A stretch of DNA of 49,406 nucleotides, from positions 1 through 49,406 of the forward strand of contig JAFSVB010000080.1 of the NCBI GenBank assembly GCA_017450325.1, in the 5' to 3' direction. The notes below the pieces were generated by a model, which was not told the DNA's origin, made no database searches, and was given only the letters and a program-made list of their open reading frames with translations. Made by a program: the position numbers and the translations under genes. This stretch comes from Bacilli bacterium. Lineage in GTDB: Bacteria > Bacillota_I > Bacilli_A > RFN20 > CAG-826. Shown piece after piece: positions 14,790-19,005 of this stretch. Each line of letters begins with the position of its first letter. Position 1 is the stretch's first letter.

Positions 14790-15889
14790 GACGTGCCTCA
14801 GATTCTAAATAAGCGTAGATAAAGGGCAGGATATCGCCATCCATCACGCCATTGACATCACCCGTTTGATAATCGGTGCGATGGTCTTTCACCATCGTAT
14901 AGGGCTGGAAGACATAGCTGCGAATCTGGGAACCCCACTCGATGTTCTTCTGCTCGCCTTGGATGGACTTTAGCTCACGGTTGCGTTCTTCGAGCTTACG
15001 CTGCATCAAAAGGTCGGTCAGCATCGACATGCAGTTTTCTTTATTCATCAGCTGGGAGCGCTCGACCTGGCACTGAACGACAATGCCCGTCGGAAGGTGG
15101 GTGATGCGAACGGCGGAAGAGACCTTGTTCACGTTTTGGCCGCCGGCGCCGCCAGAACGGTATGTATCGACGCGGAGGTCCTTAGGATCGATGACGATAT
15201 CGCTGATCGCGCCAAATTCTGGAATGACGTTGACGGAAGCAAAGCTCGTATGGCGACGCGCCGCAGCGTCGAATGGCGAGATGCGAACCAGGCGATGGAC
15301 GCCTTTTTCGCCTTTGAGATGGCCATAGGCATCGGGACCGGAAATCTTCAAAGCGATGGACTTAATACCCGCTTCGTCGCCTTCTTCCATGTCCATGACT
15401 TGCAGTTTGAAGCCGTTGCGCTCGCAAAAGCGGCCATACATGCGCGAAAGCATCTGAGCCCAGTCTTGGGCTTCGGTGCCGCCAGCGCCCGCATGGACTT
15501 CCAGCGTGCAGTTCAATGCGTCATATTCGCCCGAGAACAAGAGCTTATGGCGGAGGTCTTCGCATTCCGTCCCGAGCTCTTCTTCCATGGAGTCGATTAG
15601 CTCGATCATCTCCCCATCGCCTTCCGAGGTCTCGGAAAGGAGGGCGTTGATATCGTCCATGGCCGAGACGGATTTTTCGTAGACGCCAAGCTTTCCCGTC
15701 AAAGCGGAGTAGCGCGCCATGACGACTTTGGCGGAATTGGGATCATCCCAAAAACCGTCCTTGTTTTGTTTTTCTTCCAGCGAGGCGATCTCCGACTTTA
15801 TCTTAGGCAGGTCAAAGAGAGTCACCGAGCTGCGAGACAAGACGGCCGAGTTCCACGGCCCTCTGTTTTAATTCGACGAGCTCTTTCAT
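14782..15889 (-). CDS. prfB: Peptide chain release factor 2, with programmed +1 frameshift
   Basis: RF2 reads UAA/UGA stops. The start is the ATG at 15889 (AAGGA upstream). After 25 codons the frame meets CTT TGA C at 15817-15811, and a +1 shift joins it to the long frame ([15 protein letters not shown] onward) ending at 14782, for 368 aa in total, the normal RF2 length. The in-frame UGA is the autoregulatory device of most bacterial prfB genes. The main frame shows the stop-codon-recognition tripeptide SPF ([12 protein letters not shown]) and the peptidyl-hydrolase GGQ ([11 protein letters not shown]). It follows secA by 44 nt and overlaps yitT. The ATG-containing reading beginning at 15840 is only part of the gene. 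Confidence 0.95.
15811..15817 (-). promoter_or_regulatory. prfB +1 programmed frameshift site (CTT TGA C)
   Basis: CUU at 15817-15815, UGA at 15814-15812, C at 15811. A GGTGA lies 4 nt upstream; it can pair with the far part of the anti-Shine-Dalgarno (AGGAGGTGA) at a spacing comparable to AGGGGG in E. coli. Confidence 0.92.
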
Positions 15890-15933: not shown

Positions 15934-18900
15934 TTATTCTGCAGGGTTTTCTGCAGGACGGATCTCGAGTTGAACGCGAAGCAGGTTCAAGGCGGTATCC
16001 ACGGCGACGGCATCCATTAGGAGGCTGACAAGGGGGGCGCCTTCGGCTGCGTAATCCTCGAGGGTGTTCTTCTCGGCGCGGGCAAGGATGCCTTGCTTGA
16101 AGGTCAGAAGGTTCTTGTGGTGAGCCTCCCAATCGCGGTCGATAACCTGGGCGCAGACATTGCGTTCCACGTAGTCGGCCTGTTCAGGGGTCCACTGTTT
16201 ACGGCGCTGGAGATATTTCTGATAGAGGGCATCGGAAAGTTTCTTGGTCGCCTCTTCGGTCGTGAGGTCATATTCCTCGGCGTTGAATTCGCCCTCGTCG
16301 AAGAAATTCGGAACGACCATGGCCTTCATCGGCTCAACATCGATCTTGCCTTCCTTGCTATAACGACGGCAGATGGCGCTGGCAGCGGTGTCGAAGAGGG
16401 CGCGAATCGTCTTCACGACGCTTGGAATGTGGGCGATTGTGTCGCGGAGTTCAATCGCGGCGCGATGGTGCGCCGCAACGACCTCGTCTTCATCGGGTTC
16501 GGTCGCTGGTGCGGGCGGAACGCTGGCATGGGAGGCGCTGCCGACGCGCGGGGCGGCACCGCCTTGTGCGGCGGCCTTTGCCGCTTCGGCCTGCTGCTGA
16601 GCGGCCTGCTGACGGCGCATTTGCTCCTCGCGTTCTTCGGGGGTCGTGAGACGGACGCGCATGAAGCTACGGACGCAGTCGACAGCCACCTGCTCGTTCA
16701 TTTCGCGGAAGAGGGCATAGCCTTCGTTGACGTAATCCTGAAGCGGATTGGTATGCGCGTAGGAGCGTAGACCGATGCCATCACGGAGATGGGACATCGT
16801 ATCGATATGCTTGGTCCAGTTGCGGTCGATGACGGAGAGGGAGACGTTGCGTTCGATGTAATCGGCCTGTTCCTCGGTCCACTCTTTGCGGCGCTGCAGA
16901 TACCTCTGGTAGAGGAATTCGCCTAAGTCCTCGCCGCCTTCTTCAACGGTCGCTTCCTCATAAGCCTTATACGGGAAGGCACCTTCATCCACGAAGGCAG
17001 GTTCGACTTGGCGACGGAGTTCCTCTGCGTTGATGAGGCCTTCGTCGCGGCCCGCGAGGACGGATTTCTTCGCGAGGTATTTGCCCGTGTCGACGAAGAA
17101 GGTATGCACCATCTCGCTGATGTCGCCCGCGAGCATGATATTGTCGCGGCGGGTATAGATGATCTGACGCTGCTTAGCGAGAACGTCATCGTAATCAAGG
17201 AGGTTCTTACGGGTATCGAAGTTGCGGCCCTCGATCTGCTTTTGGGCATTGGTGACGACGTTTTGAATCATGCGGTTCTCAAGGTGGTCGTCGCCGAGTT
17301 GTTTCTTAAAGGTATCGCGGATATTGTCCGGAACGAAGCGGCGCATAAGCTCGTCGTCGAAGGAAACATAGAAGCGGGAGAAACCAGGGTCACCCTGACG
17401 TCCGGAACGGCCGCGGAGCTGATTGTCGATACGGCGGGATTCATGGCGTTCGGTGCCTAAGACGCAGAGGCCGCCGAGTTCTTTGACTCCTTCGCCGAGC
17501 TTGATGTCGGTACCACGACCAGCCATGTTGGTGGCCAAGGTAACGGCGCCCTTTTCGCCTGCGTGGGAGATAATTTCCGCTTCGCGGGCGGCGTTTTTCG
17601 CATTGAGGACCTCGTGGGGGATGCCCGCGGCGGTGAGCAAGGCGGAAATTTCTTCGTTGGATTCAACGGAGGAAGTACCGATCAAAACGGGCTGCCCTTT
17701 CTCGTGGCGCTCCTTCACCTCTTGGACGAGGCCGGCGAGTTTCGCGTTGTGATTACCATAGATATGATCATCGTCGTCGATACGCTGAATCGGGCGGTTG
17801 GTCGGGATGACGATAACCTTCATGTTGTAGATCTTCTCGAATTCCTCTTCCTCGGTCTTCGCGGTACCGGTCATGCCGGAGAGTTTCTTATAGAGACGGA
17901 AGAAGTTCTGATAGGTAATCGTCGCCATGACGACGGTTTCCTGCTTGATTTCGACGCCTTCCTTGGCTTGAATCGCTTGCTGGAGACCGTCGTTATATTC
18001 GCGGCCCTTCATGATACGGCCAGTGAACTGATCGATGAGCTGGATCTGACGCTCGGAGTCAACCATGTATTCGACGTCACGCGCCATGATGTAGTTGGCT
18101 TTGAGGGCTTGGTGGATACGGTGGACGAGGTCCTGGTTTTCAGGGTCATAGAGGTTGCGGATGCCGAACATCTTCTCGGCTTTGTCGTTGCCAGAGTCGG
18201 TCAAAGAAGCGGTCTTCGTCTTGATATCGACGGTGAAGTCCTTCTCCTTCTTGAGCATTTTGACGAAGCGGTCCGCGACCTGGTATTGGCTCGCGGCGGC
18301 TTGCTTGCCACCGGAAATGATAAGCGGGGTCCTCGATTCATCGACGAGGACGGAGTCGGCTTCGTCGACGATGCAGAACTTAAGGCCGCGGAGGACGCGC
18401 CCTTGCATCGTGGTGGCCATGTTGTCGCGGAGGTAGTCGAAACCAAGCTCCGAGTTGGTCGTATAGGTGATGTCACAAAGATACGCCTCGCGCTTCTCGG
18501 CGGTGGTTTTGGAGGCGAGGTTGACGCCGACGGTCAAACCGAGGAAGCGGTAGACCTGGCCCATCCATTCCGCGTCACGGGAGGCGAGGTATTCGTTGAC
18601 GGTGATGACGTGGACGCCTTCGCCACGGAGGGCGTTGAGATAGACGGCCATGGTCGCGGTCAGGGTCTTACCTTCGCCCGTGCGCATCTCGGCGACGTTG
18701 CCGCCATCGAGGACGAGCGAGCCGACGATCTGAACCTTGAAGGGTTTCTGCTGTAAAGTGCGCCACGCCGCTTCGCGAGCGACGGCAAAGGCCTCAATCT
18801 TGATTTCTTCTTGCTTGCGGTCTTTCTCTTCCGGCGTCGTCGCGGCGGCGAGGATCGCCTTGAATTCATCGGTCTTCGCACGAAGTTCGTCATCGGTCAG

Positions 18901-19005
18901 AGCCGCCATTTTGCTATCCAGCGCCATGACGGATTCGGCTACGCGTTCGAGCCGCTTCAGTTCTCTTTTTTCGAGGTGGAATATTGCTTCAATAAAGTTA
19001 GCCAC
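15934..19005 (-). CDS. secA: Protein translocase ATPase SecA, with duplicated C-terminal helical scaffold
   Basis: 1023 aa from a GTG at 19005 (AAGGAG 6 nt upstream); the ATG at 19053 would add 16 unlikely residues. It drives protein export through SecYEG. Motifs in order: MRTGEGKTL (Walker A), VHVITVNEYLASRD, LGFDYLRDNM, VDEADSVLVDESRTPLIISG, MTGTAKTEEEEF, TNMAGRGTDIKL, GLCVLGTERHESRRIDNQLRGRSGRQGD. A normal helical scaffold with LRDGIGLRSYAHTNPLQDY spans ~654-786. It is followed by an Ala/Gln/Pro-rich linker and a second diverged copy at ~885-1015. Family length is usually ~780-950. There is no CxCxSGx8CH zinc motif at the end. First gene of the secA-prfB-yitT-uvrB-HAD operon. Confidence 0.96.
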   Translation of the reverse strand: MANFIEAIFHLEKRELKRLERVAESVMALDSKMAALTDDELRAKTDEFKAILAAATTPEEKDRKQEEIKIEAFAVAREAAWRTLQQKPFKVQIVGSLVLDGGNVAEMRTGEGKTLTATMAVYLNALRGEGVHVITVNEYLASRDAEWMGQVYRFLGLTVGVNLASKTTAEKREAYLCDITYTTNSELGFDYLRDNMATTMQGRVLRGLKFCIVDEADSVLVDESRTPLIISGGKQAAASQYQVADRFVKMLKKEKDFTVDIKTKTASLTDSGNDKAEKMFGIRNLYDPENQDLVHRIHQALKANYIMARDVEYMVDSERQIQLIDQFTGRIMKGREYNDGLQQAIQAKEGVEIKQETVVMATITYQNFFRLYKKLSGMTGTAKTEEEEFEKIYNMKVIVIPTNRPIQRIDDDDHIYGNHNAKLAGLVQEVKERHEKGQPVLIGTSSVESNEEISALLTAAGIPHEVLNAKNAAREAEIISHAGEKGAVTLATNMAGRGTDIKLGEGVKELGGLCVLGTERHESRRIDNQLRGRSGRQGDPGFSRFYVSFDDELMRRFVPDNIRDTFKKQLGDDHLENRMIQNVVTNAQKQIEGRNFDTRKNLLDYDDVLAKQRQIIYTRRDNIMLAGDISEMVHTFFVDTGKYLAKKSVLAGRDEGLINAEELRRQVEPAFVDEGAFPYKAYEEATVEEGGEDLGEFLYQRYLQRRKEWTEEQADYIERNVSLSVIDRNWTKHIDTMSHLRDGIGLRSYAHTNPLQDYVNEGYALFREMNEQVAVDCVRSFMRVRLTTPEEREEQMRRQQAAQQQAEAAKAAAQGGAAPRVGSASHASVPPAPATEPDEDEVVAAHHRAAIELRDTIAHIPSVVKTIRALFDTAASAICRRYSKEGKIDVEPMKAMVVPNFFDEGEFNAEEYDLTTEEATKKLSDALYQKYLQRRKQWTPEQADYVERNVCAQVIDRDWEAHHKNLLTFKQGILARAEKNTLEDYAAEGAPLVSLLMDAVAVDTALNLLRVQLEIRPAENPAE
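15961..16353 (-). repeat. Second, diverged copy of the SecA C-terminal scaffold (residues ~885-1015)
   Basis: In-gene duplication. YLQRRKQWTPEQADYVERNV here matches YLQRRKEWTEEQADYIERNV in the first copy (16648-17045). 22 of 29 aligned positions are identical from that Tyr to the Trp of VIDRxW. The later half has lost the conserved LRxGIxLRxY motif (FKQGILARAEKN instead). Confidence 0.85.
16648..17045 (-). repeat. First, canonical copy of the SecA C-terminal scaffold (residues ~654-786)
   Basis: Holds the family-typical HIDTMSHLRDGIGLRSYAHT and DYVNEGYALFREM motifs. The duplicated partner lies ~230 residues downstream, beyond a ~98-residue linker. Confidence 0.85.

Follow-up and report, generated by a model that had tools for sequence, protein, structure and literature searches.

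A SecA with a second, diverged wing and two-helix-finger unit in uncultured Bacilli, a candidate tethered C-domain

The secA gene of an uncultured Bacilli bacterium, located in a stretch of 49,406 nucleotides (contig JAFSVB010000080.1, assembly GCA_017450325.1; hereafter the window), encodes a protein in which the wing and two-helix-finger unit occurs twice, and this duplication is genuine. SecA is an essential protein with a strongly conserved domain layout; the possession, by a small clade of uncultured Bacilli, of this export motor with an altered second copy of its last domain is an unusual remodelling. The second unit (copy 2) is read here, with a probability of about 0.5, as a tandem-duplicated, tethered and non-catalytic C-domain that would dock on the motor or the channel. 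A SecA with a duplicated wing/finger was not found reported in the literature searched, which comprised mainly titles and abstracts, with most subscription journals outside its scope, and the available part of a survey of 156 SecA proteins, in which tails are sorted by the metal-binding domain, makes no mention of a second scaffold (PMC6620043).

The gene occupies 15934-19005 of the minus strand (stop codon at 15934-15936) and encodes 1023 aa from a GTG start at 19005, which is preceded by AAGGAG. PF07517, PF21090, PF01043, and PF07516 (DEAD, P-loop, preprotein cross-linking, and wing/scaffold, respectively) all scored above their cut-offs in one SecA chain, and Bacillus subtilis SecA (1tf2) aligned with 822.6 bits over residues 21-824 of a 1039-aa reading of the protein. 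The minus strand of the window also carries a comFA-like gene, a comFC-like phosphoribosyltransferase gene, prfB, yitT, and a uvrB-like gene. The prfB gene starts at ATG 15889 on the minus strand (window 15815-15889) and contains CTTTGAC, the usual programmed frameshift site, so the listed 352-aa open reading frame lacks the first prfB residues.

Within the secA frame, PF07516 (SecA_SW) was matched twice, at 16654-17283 (177.2 bits, profile positions 2-199) and at 15970-16479 (46.2 bits, E 6.4e-12, profile positions 36-200). Copy 1, consisting of the scaffold helix end, the helical wing, and the two-helix finger, is intact and spans residues 602-786 (16648-17202, minus strand), with its finger tip, GIGLRSYAHTNPLQD, at residues 743-757 (16735-16779). 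It is followed by a Pro/Ala/Gln/Glu-rich linker at residues 787-837 (16495-16647; these four residues make up 64% over 50 residues) and then by copy 2 at residues 838-1017 (15955-16494), a diverged second wing and two-helix-finger unit that was recognized by PF07516, blastp, AlphaFold2, Foldseek, and VIA-align. Copy 2 was identical to copy 1 at 68/183 positions (E 3e-37, blastp), and no repeat of the scaffold helix part before residue 602 was found. The initial annotation had described residues ~654-786 and ~885-1015 as homologous; the homology stands, whereas the start does not, as copy 2 begins near residue 838 and therefore also includes the scaffold helix end and the beginning of the wing. 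The unstructured linker comprises ~50 residues and not the ~98 proposed. The reported best block (22 of 29 identical) was recovered as 23/31 when extended by one residue at each end. The reported loss of the LRxGIxLRxY core from copy 2 was likewise evident in the alignment, with GIGLRSYAHTNPLQDY in copy 1 versus GILAR--AEKNTLEDY in copy 2, where the degenerate finger tip (GILARAEKNTLE, residues 972-983, 16057-16092, minus strand) is two residues shorter and lacks the tip aromatic.

The predicted fold of copy 2 is that of a SecA wing/finger. Modelled alone with AlphaFold2, copy 2 yielded a pLDDT of 89.7, a pTM of 0.84, and a full hairpin (model helices 104-138 and 145-174) from an input of six rows, copy 2 and copy 1 from three genomes, the three copy 1 rows of which favour this fold. 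The best 26 Foldseek rows for this model were all SecA or SecA2 (3jv2_B, E 1.9e-06, TMq 0.78), and VIA-align superposed it on residues 599-779 of 3jv2_B with Z 17.9 and an rmsd of 2.7 over 173 aligned residues; the best 22 rows were SecA or SecA2 and the top unrelated row reached Z 9.0. The structural check proposed at the outset thus came out in favour of a resemblance between the second segment and the scaffold. A full-length model from three sequences (pLDDT 46.1, pTM 0.29) was too poor to place copy 2 on the motor. Regarding individual residues, copy 2 retained the finger-base motif RRxxW[TS]xEQAD[FY][VI]ERxV and DWExH in 5/5 carriers, and the finger tip LRxGIxLRxYAxTNPL with its aromatic was missing from copy 2 in all five (alignment of three, sequences of all five). 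The aromatic residue at the SecA finger tip is thought to push the substrate (PMC5963308). The predicted hairpin might lead one to expect a second working finger, in which copy 2 would enter SecY or bind substrate as another translocating element. Such a role is very improbable, because the tip is lost; moreover, the scaffold helix part before residue 602 is not repeated, and the aligned part of SecY that was examined shows no change. Specifically, one SecY was found in each of 11/12 genomes searched, and none in G151 (61% complete); these 11 proteins are between 452 and 457 residues long, those of the four carriers having 455, with no carrier-specific change in the C-terminal alignment part.

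A close counterpart is B. subtilis SecA (PDB 1m6n, 1tf5, 3jv2, and 6itc), to which the entire motor and the first C-domain of the window protein can be aligned and whose residues 599-779 are also matched by copy 2; those structures have one wing/finger, whereas the window SecA bears a second one on a ~50-residue linker. SecA2 is an accessory SecA acting beside the housekeeping SecA1. The Clostridioides difficile SecA2 (6sxh) shares the SecA fold, and copy 2 aligns to its wing/finger with Z 15.8, but SecA2 is a paralogue, whereas the window-type protein is an enlarged SecA and the single one found in four of the five carriers. An identity as SecA2 was rejected, no SecA_SW frame beyond secA having been found in G102, G151, G152, and G155, all incomplete genomes. 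Since the motor and first finger are intact and another SecA was not found in these four carriers, the window SecA is taken as the housekeeping SecA; SecY is present in its own genome, and export activity together with SecYEG is presumed.

Survey of the clade revealed that the duplication is shared by relatives, contrary to the possibility, raised initially, that it might be absent from them. A SecA_SW match was present in 29/31 genus genomes and a second match in the same frame in five, namely the window's own genome (G000), G102, G151, G152, and G155. Copy 2 scored above the curated PF07516 cut-off (26.7 bits) in four of them (G000 46.2, G152 46.0, G151 35.1, and G155 31.9 bits); that of G102 lay under it (18.9 bits, E 8.8e-4) but was recognised by the copy 2 profile, which includes the G102 sequence. 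A TAA flagged in the G151 match is, by its coordinates, the gene's own stop at the match end. Two carriers are named assemblies, JAGAHY010000187.1 (L033, Bacilli bacterium RGIG8459), the record title of which names water deer abomasum, and SVBF01000012.1 (L034, Erysipelotrichaceae bacterium SIG221). Among 146 genomes drawn from the family, an in-frame second SecA_SW match occurred in G000 and G102 only. With the copy 2 profile, 5/279 order genomes passed E 1e-45, all within the genus (the best copy 1 score, among the matches listed, was E 1.9e-43), and 1/395 of the class sample, the own genome, passed E 1e-42; these order and class scans target relatives of this particular copy 2, convergent duplications being surveyed within the 146 family genomes only. 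Among the matches listed, G029, G039, and G091 were each hit twice by the copy 2 profile; G029 and G039 have ordinary SecAs, with frames of 813 and 818 aa.

These relatives also refute an assembly or binning artefact, i.e., the wrong joining of two secA pieces, the probability of which is negligible. The bin (2.38 Mb, contamination 3.61%) does hold a second secA-prfB contig, but the SecA on that contig lacks copy 2, and the architecture and gene order are alike in five genomes, including the two separately named assemblies, with clade-like divergence. This contig, C135 (L001, 3511 bases), carries a secA fragment with a prfB of its own behind it, the two being 79% and 71% identical, respectively, to their counterparts in the window; it groups with G154 and probably represents a second strain or species in the bin.

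Phylogenetic analyses pointed to a single gain. The five carriers grouped at 98/96 in a 24-row tree built from the remainder of SecA, with the single-copy G149 as sister (six rows at 100/99), followed by G150, and no single-copy genome fell inside the carrier clade. A domain tree of 34 rows united the five copy 2 sequences at 100/99 on long branches, although bootstrapping was not settled and the copy 2 of G155 and G102 form especially long ones (end branches 3.97 and 3.45, respectively). The genus rows G159, G044, and G161, whose domain ends were unmatched by the patterns, were left out of the 34-row tree, and the 24-row tree also left out short frames. As the five SecAs form one clade with a single-copy sister, copy 2 was gained once. 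Gene order was alike in the five carriers, G149, and G150 over the stretch covered by the fetched pieces. Furthermore, the motif GETAxAxxSGNVxxA, which occurs in the tails of the single-copy G149 and G158 and with variations in G150, G154, and G157, precedes copy 2 in G152, G102, and G155 and is not recognisable in the window and G151; in G152, an additional acidic tail lies behind copy 2. The old tail motif ahead of copy 2 and the further acidic tail behind it indicate that copy 2 was appended to the original tail, the outcome expected of a tandem 3' duplication, and we infer that the 3' end of secA itself was duplicated in tandem. Copy 2 likely, though this is not proven, descends from the clade's own copy 1 and not from another SecA, the identities on which this would rest being nearly tied.

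Identity among carriers was 83-92% for copy 1 and 36-67% for copy 2. The NG86 dN/dS ratios were 0.039-0.078 for the motor and 0.049-0.117 for copy 1 (10 pairs each), versus 0.127-0.574 for copy 2 in 9/10 pairs (one pair being saturated), the copy 2 values being rough because its dS ranged over 1.1-3.1. For both the motor and copy 1, dS between carriers was about 0.8-1.6, so that synonymous sites were near saturation. By these measures, copy 2 evolves faster than copy 1 and under relaxed purifying selection. Gene conversion keeping the RRKxWTxEQAD block alike was considered and rejected, as no consistent sign was seen across carriers: same-residue codons were identical between the copies at 16/22 positions in the window (11.2 expected from the gene's codon use, an expectation that holds for the window only), 10/18 in G152, 10/18 in G102, 14/21 in G151, and 7/14 in G155.

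The fast divergence and the lost finger tip of copy 2, together with the wide differences in length and kind among SecA tails in the family, would also be expected of a tolerated passenger, that is, a duplication in an addition-tolerant tail that is under selection only for folding and solubility and has no dedicated function. This explanation is nearly as likely as a docking or regulatory domain. Against it, however, the frame is intact in all five carriers despite near-saturated synonymous sites, dN/dS is well under 1, the finger-base motif persists in all five, and the carrier clade contains no single-copy genome in the 24-row tree. As a passenger, copy 2 would illustrate the extent to which an essential motor tolerates rebuilding of its end at no cost.

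The preferred reading, a tethered and non-catalytic C-domain that docks, starts from what the sequences show. In the ancestor of one genus clade, the 3' part of secA became doubled in frame, with the second unit behind the old disordered tail, and the five descendants have all retained it; the motor and the copy 1 finger are intact, and copy 2 has the finger-base residues but not the tip. Copy 2 might then form a "pseudo C-domain" in place of the C-terminal tail of other SecAs and do the same kind of job, docking reversibly on the motor, a second SecA protomer, or SecYEG via surfaces inherited from copy 1, and, when docked, could tune the ATPase, the clamp, or the dimer equilibrium, pushing no polypeptide itself. 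Published work indicates that the flexible tail of E. coli SecA controls conformation and ATPase, binding the core and inhibiting the ATPase until the metal-binding domain relieves the inhibition (PMC6620043), that the two-helix finger, alternatively named IRA1, is part of the C-domain (PMC6123708), and that the scaffold is bound by the C-tail of SecY and the wing touches lipid (PMC6599042). On this basis, a C-domain copy tethered at the tail position would most simply be a regulatory or docking domain. Consistent with this are the two in-frame PF07516 matches, the single origin, the shared gene order, the old tail motif ahead of copy 2, the kept fold and finger-base motif, the lost finger tip, dN/dS below 1 in 9/10 pairs, the finding of one SecA only in four carriers, and the autoinhibition by the E. 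coli tail. Against it, no docking site emerged from the poor full-length model, the divergence of copy 2 far outpaces that of copy 1, as expected of an unneeded passenger, SecY has no matching change in the aligned part examined, the tail motif ahead of copy 2 is unrecognisable in two carriers (the window and G151), copy 1 rows helped the fold model, and the descent is unproven. If copy 2 is regulatory, it offers a natural experiment on the control of the motor by its C-domain and tail, with single-copy sister species as the control.

In E. coli SecA, as in the window SecA, the catalytic core is followed by a small module on a flexible linker, but the E. coli module is a zinc knuckle, whereas the one in the window is a ~180-residue C-domain copy without CxCx8C(H/C). 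The absence of a zinc tail noted initially was borne out, but it extends beyond the carriers: the CxCx8C(H/C) motif was found in 0/85 SecA rows, with and without copy 2, within the last 60 residues (some genomes are repeated and a few rows are cut by contig ends). Hence the proposal that copy 2 replaced a missing zinc domain lacks support as history, and such a replacement is ruled out as the origin of copy 2, since single-copy relatives are zinc-less as well. A replacement in which copy 2 took over the binding of ribosomes or chaperones after the metal-binding domain was lost is also improbable: copy 2 does sit in the place of the absent tail, and the E. coli metal-binding domain binds ribosomes (PMC6620043), but the loss of the zinc tail did not require copy 2 in the relatives, SecB was not found in the one genome searched (the window's own), and copy 2 carries a net negative charge (-1.7 to -9.5), a property that does not point to ribosome binding.

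SecA tails vary elsewhere in these lineages. Single-copy SecAs of the genus, e.g., that of the sister G149 with its same gene order, lack copy 2 and have, at their C-terminus, either an acidic tail that is disordered or a module of another kind. In G121, G139, and G017 (L036, L037, and L038), this is a different small conserved module, NLDEAK...LLCKDAKAIIAFL, behind a Pro/Glu/Lys-rich linker, for which no Pfam match was obtained in the two tested (G121 and G139). It is a tentative and rather doubtful extension that the second wing/finger acts in cis or across the dimer as a regulatory or docking domain competing with the protein's own C-domain for partners, and that the SecA tail serves as a port for new modules in zinc-less lineages, such as copy 2, the module of G121, G139, and G017, and an end motif in genus g26. 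In the latter genus, 10/10 SecA rows (L021, L025, L027, L030, and L048-L053) end in a conserved tail, ISxIDxxxxAAxxxxxxxI[HR]TN, which might serve as a short docking motif substituting for the zinc domain.
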